From IMG/VR virus record IMGVR_UViG_3300009183_000354, positions 1 to 24,275 of that record: a stretch of 24,275 bases of DNA; one strand, 5' to 3'. Below are positions 2,690-18,956 of this stretch, in pieces. The DNA is from a virus. The position numbers and the translations under genes were made by a program. Positions within the stretch are counted from its first letter, which is position 1. Each line of letters starts with the position of its first letter. The notes beneath the pieces were generated by a model, which saw only the letters and a program-made list of their open reading frames with translations, did no database searches and was not told where the DNA came from.

Positions 2690-4909
2690 ATGGCTATTAT
2701 TAACGCACAAATTCAATCAGCGGCAGAATTAACATTAACTGTTGATCGTGGGATTATTGGAAGTTCAGGCACATCAGGTTATTCAGGTTATTCAGGTTAT
2801 AGTGGTGTAGGTGTTAGCGGATACAGTGGCTATAGCGGATATAGCGGCATTGATGGCACAGCACAAAGCGGTGTATCAGGATACAGCGGAAGAAGTGGAT
2901 ACAGTGGCTACAGCGGATACAGCGGCACAAACGGAAGTGCTGGCGCATCAGGAACAAGCGGATATTCAGGTTATTCAGGCAGTGGCATATCAGGATACAG
3001 CGGTGCAACAGGTCCACAAGGAATCAGTGGGTTTAGCGGCGCACAGGGCGCAAGCGGATTTTCAGGCGCAGTAGGCGCTAGCGGATTTTCAGGAATTAGT
3101 GGATTCAGCGGCACAAGCGGATATTCAGGATCAGGCATAAGCGGTTGGTCAGGTTATTCAGGCATAAACGGATTGAGCGGATACAGCGGACAAAACGGAT
3201 CGCAAGGCATCAGCGGATTTTCAGGTTACAGTGGAGCTGTTGGAACACAAGGCACTAGCGGATTCAGTGGATATAGTGGTGCAGGCGGTTCTGTTGGCGC
3301 GTCAGGAACATCAGGATACAGTGGTTTCAGCGGATATTCAGGTAGCGGATTTAGCGGTTACAGCGGATACAGCGGTGTAAATGGTTTAAGCGGATATTCA
3401 GGTCAAAATGGCTCACAAGGTATTTCAGGATTTAGCGGATACAGTGGAGCTGTTGGTGCATCAGGTCTATCAGGATACAGCGGAACAGTTGGTGCTAGTG
3501 GGTTTAGCGGATACAGTGGCTCAGGAATAAGCGGATACTCAGGTTACTCAGGCTTTAGTGGCGCACAAGGTCAGTCATCAAGTTATTTTGAATACCATGC
3601 TCACACAGGAACAACTTCAGGCTATCCAGGCGATGGCGCGGTTGGTTGGAACAACGCAACTCAAGCAAGCTCAACTATAGTTAATGTTTCACACTTAACT
3701 GAAACTAATGTTGATATAGATATTTATTTATCTTTATTAACTAATTCAGAACAATTTGTGGTTCAAGATGCAAACGCAAGTATTAATTCTCAAACTTGGC
3801 AAATTAATGGCACACCAATTAATTACAATGCTGGCACTGCAACTTCTTATTGGGCTTATCCTGTTACTTTAGTATCAAGTAGCGGAACAGGCACTACAAA
3901 CTTTGCAAACAATCATAATTTAATTTTAGCGCTTGTTAATGGTGTATCAGGCGTATCAGGTTTTAGTGGATATAGTGGTTTTAGCGGATTCAGCGGAATG
4001 AGCGGTGCAAGCACAAGTGGATACAGCGGTTACAGCGGTGCGGTTGGGGCTAGTGGCACAAGCGGATACAGTGGATATTCAGGAAGTGGTGTGTCAGGCT
4101 GGTCAGGTTTTAGCGGCATAAATGGTGCAAGCGGAATATCAGGCTTTAGTGGCGCACAGGGAATCAGTGGATATTCAGGATACAGTGGTGCAGTTGGTAT
4201 CAGCGGTTTTTCAGGCATCAGCGGATATAGCGGAATTGACGGAACAAATGGGGCATCAGGTATCTCAGGCTATTCAGGTTTCTCAGGCTCAGGCATTAGT
4301 GGCTACTCAGGATATTCAGGTAGCGGTATTAGTGGCTACTCAGGAATAAACGGATTCTCAGGAATCAGTGGATTCAGTGGAGCAAATGGAGCTTCAGGAT
4401 TCAGCGGATATTCAGGTGAAGTAGGCGCAAGTGGTTTTTCAGGAATCAGTGGCTACAGTGGATTTAGTGGATACAGTGGAAGCGGTATATCAGGTTATTC
4501 AGGTTCAGGTATATCAGGTTATTCAGGATATAGTGGAATAGGCACTAGCGGATTCAGTGGATTTAGTGGCGCGGTTGGTGCAAGCGGATTTAGTGGGTTC
4601 AGCGGAATCAGTGGATACTCAGGCTTTAGTGGATCAGGTATAAGCGGATTTTCAGGCGCAAGCGGCATATCAGGCTACAGTGGCGCTGCACCAAGCATTG
4701 TAACTAAAATGATTTATGATGTTTATACTGCTACGGCTGCTCAAACATCATTTACAACAACTAATACTTATACTGCAAATAAAATTCAAGTATCAGTTAA
4801 TGGTATAGAATTAGTTAATGGAACTGATTGCACAGTTAGCGGTGGCACTACATTTACAACAACTGCATTAACATTAAACGACAGGGTATCAGCAATATAT
4901 CCAATATAA
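2690..4909 (+). CDS. Collagen-like G-X-S triplet repeat fibre protein
   Basis: A 739-residue protein. Residues 1-23 are a short cap. Residues about 24-293 and 418-666 are almost pure Gly-X-Ser triplets with X mainly Tyr, Phe, Ile, Ala or Val. They are split by a non-repeat domain (about 294-417, containing YFEYHAHTGTTSGYPGDG and FANNHNLILALVNG) of a kind seen between collagen-like blocks in phage fibres. The last 73 residues form a small beta-rich module with VSVNGIELVNGTDC. Proline is almost absent (one GPQG), unlike classical collagen, so an aromatic-stabilised trimer is inferred. Serine alternates between TCA and AGC/AGT codons. Likely a long flexible tail or capsid fibre. Confidence 0.85.
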   Translation: MAIINAQIQSAAELTLTVDRGIIGSSGTSGYSGYSGYSGVGVSGYSGYSGYSGIDGTAQSGVSGYSGRSGYSGYSGYSGTNGSAGASGTSGYSGYSGSGISGYSGATGPQGISGFSGAQGASGFSGAVGASGFSGISGFSGTSGYSGSGISGWSGYSGINGLSGYSGQNGSQGISGFSGYSGAVGTQGTSGFSGYSGAGGSVGASGTSGYSGFSGYSGSGFSGYSGYSGVNGLSGYSGQNGSQGISGFSGYSGAVGASGLSGYSGTVGASGFSGYSGSGISGYSGYSGFSGAQGQSSSYFEYHAHTGTTSGYPGDGAVGWNNATQASSTIVNVSHLTETNVDIDIYLSLLTNSEQFVVQDANASINSQTWQINGTPINYNAGTATSYWAYPVTLVSSSGTGTTNFANNHNLILALVNGVSGVSGFSGYSGFSGFSGMSGASTSGYSGYSGAVGASGTSGYSGYSGSGVSGWSGFSGINGASGISGFSGAQGISGYSGYSGAVGISGFSGISGYSGIDGTNGASGISGYSGFSGSGISGYSGYSGSGISGYSGINGFSGISGFSGANGASGFSGYSGEVGASGFSGISGYSGFSGYSGSGISGYSGSGISGYSGYSGIGTSGFSGFSGAVGASGFSGFSGISGYSGFSGSGISGFSGASGISGYSGAAPSIVTKMIYDVYTATAAQTSFTTTNTYTANKIQVSVNGIELVNGTDCTVSGGTTFTTTALTLNDRVSAIYPI
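2759..3570 (+). repeat. Collagen-like repeat block 1 (coding)
   Basis: About 90 nine-base units encoding Gly-X-Ser, within the fibre gene. At DNA level the units mix GGTTATTCA, GGATACAGC, GGATTTAGT and similar synonymous versions, so long exact repeats are rare although the peptide is monotonous. Confidence 0.85.
3941..4688 (+). repeat. Collagen-like repeat block 2 (coding)
   Basis: Second run of Gly-X-Ser coding units in the same gene, after the central non-repeat domain. It uses the same mixture of TCA and AGC/AGT serine codons and has short interruptions such as GAVGAS and GINGAS. Confidence 0.85.
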
Positions 4910-4918
4910 AGGATTAAC

Positions 4919-5548
4919 ATGGACAAGATAACACAAGATGCTTTGGCATACTTTAAAGAGCATGACCAAAATCATTACAGATATTTGCTTACAAACAATT
5001 ACGAGCGAGCGGTTTTTCTAAAAGGCGATCCAGTCTTTCCTAGAGAAGCCACTCGTTATCTTTGGGCTAACCGCAATCTTTTAGGCAGAAATGTTTTAGA
5101 GATTGGTTGTTCTACAGGTTACGGCTCTCAATTTCTTCCAAATGATGCAAGTTATATAGGTTTAGATTACGATCCTGTTATTATTGGTGTTGCAAACGAA
5201 CAGCAATGGGGTTCTAACGCGTCTTTTATTTATGCTGATGCCAATGCCTACCCTTTTGAACAATACGATACCATAATCGCGTTTGAGTTTATTGAGCATA
5301 TTGAAAATGGGCTTGAGATAGCACAAAAACTTAAACAGCATTGCAAAAGACTTCTTCTTACTACTCCGCATAATGAGCCTGTTGGATTTTGGGGCGAACA
5401 TCACAAGCTTCATGGTTTAAATGAATCACATTTTCCCGACTTTAAATATGAATTTATTAATGAGGAAGGTTATATTTCAAAAGAACCTGCTGAAATTAAT
5501 GAAAGCAATAGATGTAACCTTATGATTATGAGGTGGGATAGTGAATAA
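4919..5548 (+). CDS. Class I SAM-dependent methyltransferase
   Basis: A 209-residue protein with a Rossmann-type SAM site: VLEIGCSTGYG at about residues 59-69 (motif I) and YIGLDYDP at about 79-86, where the Asp would bind the ribose. YDTIIAFEFIEHIENG follows at about 115-130. The pattern fits the Methyltransf_11/23 group that methylates small molecules or sugars; there is no DNA methyltransferase motif (no catalytic PC or DPPY). Its 3' end overlaps the following glycosyltransferase by 8 bases, so glycan or fibre decoration is the likely context. The acceptor is unknown. Confidence 0.8.
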   Translation: MDKITQDALAYFKEHDQNHYRYLLTNNYERAVFLKGDPVFPREATRYLWANRNLLGRNVLEIGCSTGYGSQFLPNDASYIGLDYDPVIIGVANEQQWGSNASFIYADANAYPFEQYDTIIAFEFIEHIENGLEIAQKLKQHCKRLLLTTPHNEPVGFWGEHHKLHGLNESHFPDFKYEFINEEGYISKEPAEINESNRCNLMIMRWDSE

Positions 5549-6509
5549 GGTTCTTTGCTCGGTAGCGACAAGAGGTCGTTATCACACAACACTTCCCTTA
5601 ACTTTAAATGCCATAATTAATCAAACTAAAAAGGTTGATAAGTTAATTATTTGTGACGACAATGACGAGCCACAGGATATGCGAAATGAGCTTATCTATA
5701 GTCATTTTTTTCAAATGCTTACTATTAAAGGCATTGCTTGGGAATGGATATTTGCAGGTAAAAAAGGTCAGCACTATATTCATCAAATGGCTAACATTAT
5801 GGGATATGATTGGGTGTGGCGAGTGGATGATGATGCAATACCCGAACCGCATGTCTTACAAACTCTTTTTAATTACACTCATAAAAATGTAGGCGCTGTT
5901 GGCGGTGCAATTATTACTTTGCCTGACAATCCTGATACTTCTAAATGCACAGGCAAAATAGAACATATCAATATAGAGCCTAACATTCAATGGTCTTTTA
6001 TTAACAAAGTCAAAGAGGTTGAGCATCTTCACTGTTCTTTTCTTTATAGAGCTGGGGTGCATGATTACAATTTAGCATTATCAAGAGTAGCGCATAGAGA
6101 AGAAACTTTATTTACTTACGGGCTATTTAATAAAGGATATAAAATCCTTGTTGTTCCTAATGCTAATACTTGGCATTTAAAGAATCCTAACGGCGGGATA
6201 AGAAGTGAAACTAATCAAGCTCTTTACGAAGCTGATGAAAAGATATTTAACAACACAATTAATTACAGCGACAAAACTGTTGTGGTATTGACAGGCGGTA
6301 TGGGCGATCATATAGTCTTTACTCATGTATTACCTGAAATTAAAAATGCAGAAATATTTACTTGCTTTCCTGACATAGTGCCAGGTCGTTCAATTGCTGA
6401 AGCTTATGAATTGTTTGGCAATATAGACCAATGGAATGTTTATATTAAGATGCATCAATGGGGTTGGAAAGACAGCTTGGAAAATGCTTATAGAAAGATG
6501 TATCTATGA
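5541..6509 (+). CDS. GT2-type glycosyltransferase with C-terminal GT9-like N-half
   Basis: A 322-residue protein starting at GTG with AGGTGG upstream. Residues 1-230 look like a GT-A glycosyltransferase: KLIICDDND near residues 34-42, the DDD metal motif at 96-98 in VWRVDDDAIPEP, and HREET at about 185-189. Residues 245-322 change character: VVVLTGGMGDHIVFTHVLPEI resembles the first beta-strand and glycine loop of a GT9/heptosyltransferase-like GT-B fold. The matching second half seems to be the next gene, which starts inside this stop codon (ATGA). Probable substrate: lipopolysaccharide or fibre sugar, inferred only. Confidence 0.75.
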   Translation: MNKVLCSVATRGRYHTTLPLTLNAIINQTKKVDKLIICDDNDEPQDMRNELIYSHFFQMLTIKGIAWEWIFAGKKGQHYIHQMANIMGYDWVWRVDDDAIPEPHVLQTLFNYTHKNVGAVGGAIITLPDNPDTSKCTGKIEHINIEPNIQWSFINKVKEVEHLHCSFLYRAGVHDYNLALSRVAHREETLFTYGLFNKGYKILVVPNANTWHLKNPNGGIRSETNQALYEADEKIFNNTINYSDKTVVVLTGGMGDHIVFTHVLPEIKNAEIFTCFPDIVPGRSIAEAYELFGNIDQWNVYIKMHQWGWKDSLENAYRKMYL

Positions 6510-6949
6510 TTATTATTAGCCCTTATTCTAAAAAGCTAATGAATGGCAAAAACAATCCTAAAAATTATCCTTACTGGAAAGAACTTATTAGACTAATCAA
6601 AGAGCCAATTGTTCAAATTGGTGTTGAGGGCGAAGAACAATTAGTTGATGACTTTAGAAAAAATTTATCTTTAGCAGAGCTTGAAACGCTTGTCAATGAG
6701 TGCAGAACATGGATAAGCTGTGATTCTTTTTTCCAACATTTTGCTTGGGATAAGAAAAAATATGGTATAGTATTGTGGTCGGTTTCTGATCCTCTGATCT
6801 TTGGACATCCTGAAAATATTAACCTATTGAAAGATAGGAATAATTTAGTTGAAAATCAATTTTTATGGTGGGAAGATACAGAGCATGACGCTAAAAAATT
6901 TGTTGATCCTGAAATAGTGATTGAAAGTTTAAATGCAAAACTCCTATGA
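6506..6949 (+). CDS. GT9/heptosyltransferase-like C-terminal half
   Basis: A 147-residue protein. EPIVQIGVEGEEQLVDDF, then SLAELETLVNECRTWISCDS, FFQHFAW, GIVLWSVSDPLIFGHPENIN follow the order seen in the nucleotide-sugar half of GT9 enzymes (family knowledge), including the 'S-x-D-S-x(3)-H' element at about 71-78. It lacks the N-terminal Rossmann half, which the preceding protein carries at its C terminus. The two frames overlap by ATGA, so the products are probably made together and may form one GT-B domain in two chains. Confidence 0.65.
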   Translation: MIIISPYSKKLMNGKNNPKNYPYWKELIRLIKEPIVQIGVEGEEQLVDDFRKNLSLAELETLVNECRTWISCDSFFQHFAWDKKKYGIVLWSVSDPLIFGHPENINLLKDRNNLVENQFLWWEDTEHDAKKFVDPEIVIESLNAKLL

Positions 6950-16828: not shown

Positions 16829-17434
16829 ATGAAGATAGAATATAAAAAGATAATAGATTTAATTCCGTATGAAAAAAACAGTCGCATTCATACAGATGCT
16901 CAATTAGATCAAATAGCCGCCTCTATCAAAGAATTTGGTTTTAGAAACCCTGTTATCGTTGATGGCGATAATATTCTTGCAGGTCATGGCAGAGTTGAGG
17001 CAGCAAAAAAACTAAACATTAAAGAAGTGCCAACGATTAGCGCTTCAGATTTAAGCGATGACCAAAAGAAAGCATTCATTATTGCAGACAATAAGATTGC
17101 TCTTAATGGTGAGTGGGACGAATCACTACTTATTCAAGAGATAGAAGATTTAAAGTTAGCTGATTTTGATATTAGCGTTTTAGCTTTTGATCCTTCTGAG
17201 CTTCAAGTTAAAGATATTGATTATTCTATTTTAGATCAGCACGACCTTGGCTCTCAGTTAGATGATTTAGCAAAAGGCGTAAGAAAAGCAATTCAAATTG
17301 AATTTGAGCCTGAACATTACGAGCGTGCGCAGTTAGCTGTTAAATTTTGGCGAGATCAAGATGCTTATGTTGGTTATATGATGCTGGAATATTTTGAAAG
17401 AGAAATGAAAGCGGTTAAAGATCAAGGCTTATGA
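16829..17434 (+). CDS. ParB/Srx-fold nuclease-domain protein
   Basis: A 201-residue protein. Residues 1-100 match the ParB N-terminal domain of phages: LIPYEKNSRIHTDAQLDQIA, FGFRNPVIVDGDNILAGHGR, VEAAKKL, IADNKIALNGEWDE. In many phages this domain is fused to an N4/N6 DNA methyltransferase; here only about 100 further residues follow and they show no methyltransferase motif. It is ATGA-coupled to the TET-associated glycosyltransferase, so it probably belongs to the same DNA-modification module. Confidence 0.8.
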   Translation: MKIEYKKIIDLIPYEKNSRIHTDAQLDQIAASIKEFGFRNPVIVDGDNILAGHGRVEAAKKLNIKEVPTISASDLSDDQKKAFIIADNKIALNGEWDESLLIQEIEDLKLADFDISVLAFDPSELQVKDIDYSILDQHDLGSQLDDLAKGVRKAIQIEFEPEHYERAQLAVKFWRDQDAYVGYMMLEYFEREMKAVKDQGL

Positions 17435-18162
17435 TTTGTTATATACCTACAAAATCAAGACAAAATACTAAAACATATAAATTATTCGAAGAAGCAGGGA
17501 TAGAGTTTATACACTTTATCGAGCCTCAAGAGTTTGATGTTTATGATGTTCCTAACAAAGTAAACATTGAGCAGAACGACAAAGGAATCGTATATGTTCG
17601 AAATTTTATGCTGGACTACGCAAGACAACACAATCATGATTGGATTATCATTTGTGATGATGATGTCACAGGATTCGGAATCTTCAATGGCAAAACTGTC
17701 AATCTTGGTGCAAAAATTTGGTTCGAGATTTTTGAAAAAGCTTCAAAACTTCCATTTGAATTAGTCGGTATCAATTACACGCAACACGCATGGCATGAAA
17801 AAACTTCCTACTCTATAAATAGAAAATACGCTGAAGTATGCGTTCTCATTAATACTAAAACTATTACTTGGAAATATAGAGAGCAATTTAAGTTTAAAGA
17901 GGATAGAGATTTTGCCTTACAAACTATTAAGCGAGGTAGTGGCATATTAAGATTTAATCATTACTGGTTTGCCTGCCCAAATGTTGGAACTAACCCTGGC
18001 GGACTGCATGAAGATTACAAATCTAAACGAGATGAAGAAGCCGCTATAAAAATGGTTAAAGAATGGCACCCATTCCTCACACTTCAAAACAAAAATGGTC
18101 GTATAGATATTAAGTCTGATATAAAAGGATTCGCAGCTCATTATAAAAAGGTTATCAAATGA
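17431..18162 (+). CDS. TET-associated glycosyltransferase (TAGT-like)
   Basis: A 243-residue protein. CYIPTKSRQNTKTYKLFEEA at the N terminus, VEP-like FIEPQEF, GIVYVRNFMLDYARQHNHDW (about 52-71) and ICDDDVTGF with Asp76-78 are the pattern of glycosyltransferases that accompany TET/JBP dioxygenases in phages and add sugars to hydroxymethyl bases. Both flanking genes overlap by ATGA, and the downstream one is the dioxygenase, which strengthens the assignment. Substrate base and sugar cannot be read from sequence. Confidence 0.75.
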   Translation: MICYIPTKSRQNTKTYKLFEEAGIEFIHFIEPQEFDVYDVPNKVNIEQNDKGIVYVRNFMLDYARQHNHDWIIICDDDVTGFGIFNGKTVNLGAKIWFEIFEKASKLPFELVGINYTQHAWHEKTSYSINRKYAEVCVLINTKTITWKYREQFKFKEDRDFALQTIKRGSGILRFNHYWFACPNVGTNPGGLHEDYKSKRDEEAAIKMVKEWHPFLTLQNKNGRIDIKSDIKGFAAHYKKVIK

Positions 18163-18956
18163 AGCGTGTCGATTTAGATTTACAGGAACATAATATAAAG
18201 ATTGGCGATACATGCGGCGATTTAAAACCAAATGTTACTGAGGATAGCATTTTCTACGCTGATGGTGAGCCGATTGGATTTTACCTAAAGGAAGTGCCTA
18301 CAAAATTAAAACAATTCGCTGAAATCGCTAATGCAGAGCTTTTATCTGATAGAGTTCCTAAAGAGATAATGAGCCGTGGTCCTAACAGTGAGTTCTATAA
18401 AAAATTGCTTGAAGAAAAAGGCATGAAACATGTAGATCAGTTTAGTACTATTTTAGGAAGCTGCGCACCAAGACCACATATGCGTATGCCATATCCTAGA
18501 ATTTCAAGAGTTCATGAAGTAGAATCTGCTCAAACATTTATTAAAGCTATGTTGCTTGCTTGTCATGAAGCTGAGGAACTTATTAAGGAGTTAGTGCCAA
18601 ATGTATATGAAAAACAGCTTAAAGCAATCGAAGAAAATGTCCCCCCTCGTTTCAGATTTGGTAGATTGTTTACTTCTAGCATCTCTAATTTCAACATCGC
18701 TGCTAATTATCATATTGATGGTGCGAACCTTAAAGATTGCGTTAATGTAATTATTGCAAAAAGAAGTAATGCTAAAGGTGGTAACACTACTGTGCCTGAT
18801 TATGGCGCAACTGTTGATAGCTCGGATAATTCTATGTTAGTTTATCCTGCTTGGCGAAATGTTCACGGAGTGACGCCGATTATACCACTTAAAGAAGGCG
18901 GTTATAGGAACACTTTAGTATTTTATCCATTAAAAGCGTTTAAAAATTACTGGTAA
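18159..18956 (+). CDS. TET/JBP family Fe(II)/2-oxoglutarate DNA dioxygenase
   Basis: A 265-residue protein with the double-stranded beta-helix ligands: His185-x-Asp187 in NFNIAANYHIDGANLKDCVN, His236 in AWRNVHGVTP, and Arg250 in GYRNTLVFYPL, which would bind 2-oxoglutarate. RFRFGRLFTSSISNFN precedes the first motif. This ordering is that of phage TET/JBP enzymes, which oxidise 5-methylcytosine or thymine in DNA (family knowledge). It shares ATGA with the glycosyltransferase, whose sugar would be placed on the new hydroxyl. A prolyl-hydroxylase-like role is the main alternative. Confidence 0.75.
   Translation: MKRVDLDLQEHNIKIGDTCGDLKPNVTEDSIFYADGEPIGFYLKEVPTKLKQFAEIANAELLSDRVPKEIMSRGPNSEFYKKLLEEKGMKHVDQFSTILGSCAPRPHMRMPYPRISRVHEVESAQTFIKAMLLACHEAEELIKELVPNVYEKQLKAIEENVPPRFRFGRLFTSSISNFNIAANYHIDGANLKDCVNVIIAKRSNAKGGNTTVPDYGATVDSSDNSMLVYPAWRNVHGVTPIIPLKEGGYRNTLVFYPLKAFKNYW

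Follow-up and report, generated by a model that had tools for sequence, protein, structure and literature searches.

We describe here a three-gene operon of an uncultivated tailed phage in which a TET/JBP-type dioxygenase is encoded together with a ParB-like protein and a TET-associated glycosyltransferase (TAGT). Comparison with related loci makes it fairly likely that the TET would hydroxylate thymine in DNA to 5-hydroxymethyluracil (5hmU) and that the TAGT would then glycosylate the 5hmU. We favor thymine as the substrate because, in the same TET lineage, enzymes of thymidine hypermodification occupy the slot that holds the TAGT in this phage. More broadly, we give about even weight to the view that, in large groups of tailed phages, TET/JBP enzymes make 5hmU in DNA and an exchangeable cassette decorates it, the operon described here yielding glycosylated 5hmU as a counterpart of base J.

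A ParB-TAGT-TET operon in a tailed phage

The stretch of DNA that we analyzed (the window) is IMG/VR record IMGVR_UViG_3300009183_000354, which has 24,275 bases and is linear by IMG/VR class; an exact-match check for an end repeat in the window found none. It has a tailed-phage layout, with tail-fiber-type genes on the left, recombination genes (YqaJ, ERF) in the middle, and terminase and portal on the right. Positions 2690 to 6949 encode a collagen-like protein with "SGYSG" repeats (739 aa) and, after it, a SAM methyltransferase, a GT-2 glycosyltransferase, and a 147-aa protein; the relative G006 has counterparts of the latter three with 67 to 87% identity. These genes possibly serve in virion-protein modification.

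The three genes at positions 16829 to 18956, all on the plus strand, form one operon. They encode a ParB-like protein of 201 aa (16829 to 17434), a TAGT of 243 aa (17431 to 18162), and a TET/JBP-fold 2-oxoglutarate/Fe(II) dioxygenase of 265 aa (18159 to 18956), and they are joined by ATGA stop/start overlaps at 17431 to 17434 (ParB/TAGT) and 18159 to 18162 (TAGT/TET). A sequence-only reading of the window had already named the three products and both overlaps, and the reading frames, the Pfam and PHROGs scores, and the fold match bear it out. All three genes are strongly supported by PHROGs; by Pfam, only the TAGT exceeds its cut-off (PF20691, 52.2 bits versus 27.5; phrog_842, 1.6e-22). The ParB-like protein scores 25.7 bits with PF02195, just below the curated cut-off of 26.3, and matches phrog_620 ("ParB-like"; E value of 9e-52) and phrog_498, the ParB part of a DNA methyltransferase family (5e-47). 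The TET scores 32.5 bits with PF12851 (E value of 6e-8), below the curated cut-off of 34.9, and matches phrog_6059 at 2.8e-47, a family misnamed "queuine tRNA-ribosyltransferase."

The ParB-like protein is probably a DNA-binding or targeting subunit and the constant partner of the TET. A role in DNA targeting fits a fusion protein of the relative L008 (L008:11920-13083), which joins a ParB domain from this family to an N6/N4 DNA methyltransferase (PF01555, 54 bits). This protein is the second ParB of the family in that locus, is 59% identical, and lies some 1.9 kb downstream from where the TET begins.

The third gene encodes a TET/JBP dioxygenase

The AlphaFold model of the TET (pLDDT of 91.4) gave as its best solved-structure matches TET2 (Z score of 18.7), NgTet1 (18.4), CcTet (17.1), and, at the end of the range, CMD1 (15.6 to 16.2), with FTO coming next after the TET enzymes (14.6). 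The TET/JBP hallmark is present, namely, the double-stranded beta-helix, the HxD...H motif, and the arginine that binds 2-oxoglutarate. Indeed, across an alignment of 40 relatives, some with as little as 25% identity, H185 and D187 (HxD), H236, and R250 never vary. The intact HxD...H...R motif of the sequence-only reading is thus confirmed, and the fold matches place the enzyme with TET/JBP rather than with the prolyl-4-hydroxylase-like enzymes that this reading had named as the alternative. Relatives of this TET are encoded in 585 IMG/VR stretches, and the module is therefore not a chance arrangement.

The solved TET-fold structures matched in the PDB searches are mostly 5-methylcytosine (5mC) enzymes. 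This carries no weight against thymine, since no JBP dioxygenase domain is among the matches of these searches. The residue three positions after the HxD was considered as a substrate marker and rejected, as it did not separate the groups: it is N in 158 aligned TETs of the window lineage and also in TET2, and D in the Melnitz-type and P12024L-type TETs and also in many TETs coupled to ADDT.

In one relative (L019:2828-3616), the TET gene occupies two frames (136 and 125 aa), so that either the copy is defective or the sequence contains an error. Public records misname genes at L081:15790-17914 and L189:776-1744, with "queuine tRNA-ribosyltransferase" given for the TETs and "DNA methylase" for the ParB of phage MED4-184. 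Some public phage records label such TETs "thymidine hydroxylase" or "Tet-like J-binding protein."

An exchangeable slot between ParB and TET

ParB lies upstream of TET in 144 of the 162 loci of the family, and the remainder are often clipped at a contig end. The slot between the two genes holds an FkbM methyltransferase in 71 loci and a TAGT in 33, the window included. In 19 loci, it holds a P-loop kinase, a class II glutamine amidotransferase, and a 293-aa protein (one further locus has an extra gene), and in 6 loci, a 333-aa relative of the 293-aa protein together with a kinase. A protein of 240 to 327 aa with a 148-aa protein is found in four loci, a second type of TAGT in two, and other genes in three, and the slot is empty in six; ParB-TET without a cassette is seen, for example, in phage Nigel, L114, and L132. 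These loci are not independent, since grouping the 158 full-length TETs at 94% identity leaves 58 groups.

On a TET tree of 50 rows, the cassette type switches at least 17 times (shuffles gave a mean of 26 and a minimum of 22). The window TET groups with those of L006, which has another cassette, and L007, which has an ADDT-like gene and a kinase (bootstrap, 95; SH-aLRT, 85), and the L007 TET is 76% identical to that of the window. Furthermore, the TAGTs are more diverged than the TETs: between L015 and the window, the TETs are 75% identical and the TAGTs 19%. We also considered coinheritance of ParB and TET, which the correlation of identities across 16 loci did not support (rho of 0.26 for ParB versus TET and 0.49 for TAGT versus TET); the history of ParB is thus no closer to that of TET than the history of TAGT is, which counts against the reading given here.

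The cassette of L006 (L006:8579-10008) encodes a 327-aa protein without a family match and a 149-aa protein with a DxDG motif, which we take to resemble that of HAD phosphatases. The predicted structure of the 327-aa protein was set aside (pLDDT of 48.2). Further single-gene cassettes without a Pfam match lie between ParB and TET at L019:1947-2831 and L076:922-1842.

ADDT cassettes in the slot of related loci

The 293-aa slot protein is an amino acid:DNA transferase (ADDT), scoring 68.7 bits with PF18724 (cut-off, 26.2). The 333-aa protein is linked to the group of the 293-aa ADDT by BLAST clustering and hhalign (94.9%), and it reached 40.5% in hhalign against the ADDT of Tonitrus and LilMcDreamy; the ADDT-like gene of L007 has no Pfam match of its own. 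The kinase beside the 333-aa protein is in turn linked to gp7 of Tonitrus (hhalign, 95.2%).

According to PMC6449724, phages M6, ViI, and phi W-14 probably build their hypermodified thymidines on 5hmdU in DNA via a 5hmdU DNA kinase. In phage M6, which served as a positive control, our search recovered the ADDT, the 5-hmdU DNA kinase (HMUDK), and a thymidylate-synthase relative (PF00303). The same search found PF00303 in 0 of 25 ADDT records of TET phages and in neither Tonitrus nor LilMcDreamy. Provided that ADDT and kinase require 5hmU, its sole visible source is the TET, which would hydroxylate thymine in DNA.

We then collected further ADDT loci. Of the 80 loci retrieved with one query, 71 were new; a second query, with the Tonitrus ADDT, returned 1 locus. 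TET is present in 68 of the 72 new loci and ParB in 58, figures that overstate the TET-ADDT link for ADDTs at large because the main query came from a TET locus; a C5-methyltransferase is present in none. In the four loci without TET, the sequence available ahead of the ADDT is short. Many of the new loci have, with Pfam support, the order ParB-TET-GATase-GNAT-ADDT-kinase. An example is L303:3529-7394, which encodes ParB, TET, a glutamine amidotransferase, a GNAT acetyltransferase, ADDT, and a P-loop kinase and represents a widespread TET-linked hypermodification cluster.

A second, distant TET lineage is represented by Nonlabens phage P12024L. TET is accompanied by a TAGT in P12024L itself and by an ADDT-like protein and a P-loop kinase elsewhere in this lineage, and 10 of the 22 loci of the P12024L-type set match the ADDT profile. 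Judged from sequence, the TAGT/ADDT exchange occurs independently in this lineage.

Cultured phages show the same variety of arrangements. The gene order is ParB, FkbM, TET, and terminase in Prochlorococcus phages MED4-184 and MED4-117; ParB, TET, and terminase in mycobacteriophage Nigel; ParB, TET, ADDT, Asp/Arg hydroxylase, and terminase in mycobacteriophage LilMcDreamy; ParB, TET, ADDT, and kinase in Rhodococcus phage Tonitrus; and ParB, TET, and FkbM in Pelagibacter phage HTVC112P. The C5-methyltransferase profile (PF00145) has no match in any of these six phages. The aspartyl/asparaginyl-hydroxylase-like gene of LilMcDreamy directly follows the ADDT (L192:2656-3759), and its product may tailor the attached amino acid.

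C5-methyltransferase genes are systematically absent

We found METHYLTRANSFERASE to be absent from the window, and this absence is systematic across the ParB-TET relatives. As the sequence-only reading had stated for C5-methyltransferases, PF00145 has no match in the window record; PF00303 has none in the window either. Among the relatives, PF00303 matched 0 of 50 records, 43 of which belong to the ParB-TET family. PF00145 matched somewhere in 5 of 77 ParB-TET records, which count against the thymine reading; 4 are in a set of 43 and 1 in a set of 34 (1 of 31 contigs and none of the 3 isolates, Tonitrus, Nigel, and LilMcDreamy). The first set was obtained from 50 records by leaving out L170, L172, L177, L181, L182, L083, and L084, which are not of the ParB-TET family, and the second from 50 by leaving out 14 P12024L-type or D-type records, Cr30, and M6. 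The 77 records are part of the fetched ParB-TET loci, and absences were counted per IMG/VR record. By record position, two of the PF00145 matches (G021 and G026) lie about 4 to 5 kb from TET.

We compared these loci with a TET family found via Methylophilales phage Melnitz-2, applying the same search to both. A C5-methyltransferase lies immediately upstream of TET in 63 of the 64 Melnitz-type loci with upstream sequence, versus 0 of 158 ParB-TET loci within 3.5 kb upstream of TET. Where a phage TET works with a C5-methyltransferase of the phage, the gene is thus plainly visible, and the ParB-TET loci do not show it.

The sequence-only reading had also suggested that a methyltransferase could lie in genome sequence that the window does not cover. 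G006 is a syntenic relative of 39.8 kb whose portal and terminase are 86% and 90% identical to those of the window. It contains the missing segment, which stretches from behind the portal as far as the tail genes and, judged by gene position and size, appears to encode head and tail proteins; PF00145 is absent from the whole record. We therefore rejected this suggestion, which the comparison leaves weak.

A single genome scan for hosts yielded only four metagenome-assembled genome (MAG) contigs. One beta-proteobacterial MAG with a TET contig in its bin has five PF00145 matches, so that a host might supply 5mC; another MAG has none. In addition, PF00145 matches somewhere in 3 of the 25 ADDT records, and in L178, a C5-methyltransferase-like gene (PF00145, 31.8 bits, positions 1 to 78 only) adjoins TET, ADDT, and kinase. 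Both observations count against thymine as the substrate.

Discussion

From the sequences, we infer thymine as the substrate, the order of the steps, the identity of the sugar, the role of ParB, and protection of the phage. The operon would act once the double-stranded DNA of the phage itself has been replicated, and its target there would be thymine. The TET/JBP-type dioxygenase would convert the thymine methyl group to give 5hmU, and since this hydroxylation would take place within DNA, neither a methyltransferase nor a modified nucleotide pool would be required. The TAGT would then add a sugar to the new hydroxymethyl group, and the resulting base-J-like glycosyloxymethyluracil may shield the phage DNA from host nucleases. 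Recruitment of the enzymes to DNA or to particular sites probably falls to the ParB-like protein, as a targeting factor or a tether. ParB and TET are retained among the relatives and the decorating enzyme is exchanged; TAGT would add a sugar, FkbM probably an O-methyl group, and kinase plus ADDT an amino acid.

The main rival explanation is that the TET oxidizes 5mC made by a methyltransferase of the host, or by an unseen one of the phage, and that the TAGT glycosylates the resulting 5hmC. Characterized phage TETs act on 5mC, as Burke et al. reportedly found in 2021. Phage TETs are likewise cited as acting on 5mC in PMC11404850, and the likely targets of glucosylation by the TAGTs of T6-like phages are cytosine derivatives, according to PMC13390438. 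One of the MAGs with a TET contig also has five C5-methyltransferase matches, and another has none. Against this stand the contrast between the Melnitz-type and the ParB-TET loci, the lack of PF00145 over the whole of the syntenic G006 record, and the pairing of the same TET lineages with ADDT and kinases known from 5hmU. Furthermore, sparse 5mC in the host would presumably lead to little modification. Of the three sources that the sequence-only reading had left side by side, thymine hydroxylation thus fits best in view of the slot enzymes of the same TET lineage, the missing segment is a poor candidate, and 5mC supplied by the host is the main rival, though the less likely one.

It is still more improbable that the TET uses another substrate or base, or that its product stays undecorated and the TAGT acts on a virion protein or a host glycan. 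The catalytic core fits TET/JBP yet gives no readout of the substrate, CcTet, one of the fold matches, was crystallized with 6mA-DNA, and some relatives have ParB-TET without a cassette. However, the TAGT sits inside the operon, joined by 4-nt overlaps, in a slot common to enzymes of DNA base modification, and the GT-2 gene at 5541 to 6506, by the tail-fiber-type genes, is a better candidate for virion glycosylation.

If thymine is indeed hydroxylated by these enzymes, phage TET/JBP proteins would be split into users of 5mC and users of thymine, and the hydroxylation of thymine within DNA, hitherto attributed to the kinetoplastid JBPs, would extend to bacterial viruses. It would also explain how phages could have 5hmU without a modified nucleotide pool. 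Several modified thymines are predicted in cultured phages, namely, P12024L, Nigel, LilMcDreamy, Tonitrus, MED4-184, and HTVC112P, and these systems would supply DNA-thymine hydroxylases and DNA-modifying transferases for use as tools.

Comparison with known systems

The component families of the module are already known, and a TET-linked thymidine system has already been proposed: according to PMC11955845, the ParB/TET/aGPT/kinase set of Tonitrus is a proposed thymidine hypermodification system. The claim of the sequence-only reading that a base-J-like thymine in a bacterial virus would be new has to be toned down for this reason, and also because Iyer et al. reportedly predicted the substrate specificities of phage TET/JBP proteins in 2013. 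In the open-access literature searched, we found neither the ParB-slot-TET pattern with TAGT/ADDT exchange at a constant TET nor a measured glycosyl-5hmU in a phage, and PMC6449724 gives the latter as unreported as of 2019.

Tonitrus resembles the window relatives in having ParB, a TET-like protein, ADDT, and a P-loop kinase in one cluster, with neither PF00145 nor PF00303. However, its cassette is of the amino acid transferase type, whereas that of the window is a glycosyltransferase, and the two TETs are 25.8% identical.

The ADDT and P-loop kinase of Pseudomonas phage M6 have counterparts at the position of the window's TAGT in relatives of the module. In M6, however, the PF00303 gene is read as a dUMP-hydroxymethylase making 5hmU before replication, while the TET is the sole source of hydroxymethyl groups seen here. 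Compared with the M6-type set of hydroxymethylase, HMUDK, and ADDT, the window is without PF00303 and has a TAGT in its slot.

The systems of C5-methyltransferase and TET, as in the Melnitz phages and reportedly in the work of Burke et al. of 2021, similarly use a TET-fold enzyme on a pyrimidine, but their methyltransferase gene adjoins TET in nearly all loci and the window has none; conversely, ParB had no match in the 72 Melnitz-type loci scanned. Provided that the substrate is thymine, the likeness to kinetoplastid base J (JBP1/2 and JGT) would lie in the two-step pathway logic: thymine in DNA would be hydroxylated and then glycosylated. Base J differs in being eukaryotic and in amounting to about 1% of thymine, and JBP1 has a J-DNA-binding domain. 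Prochlorococcus phages MED4-184/P-HS2 and MED4-117 share with the window a ParB and a TET (49.6% identical to that of the window) clustered just before the terminase, and they differ in that their slot holds an FkbM methyltransferase (PF05050, 43.8 bits).
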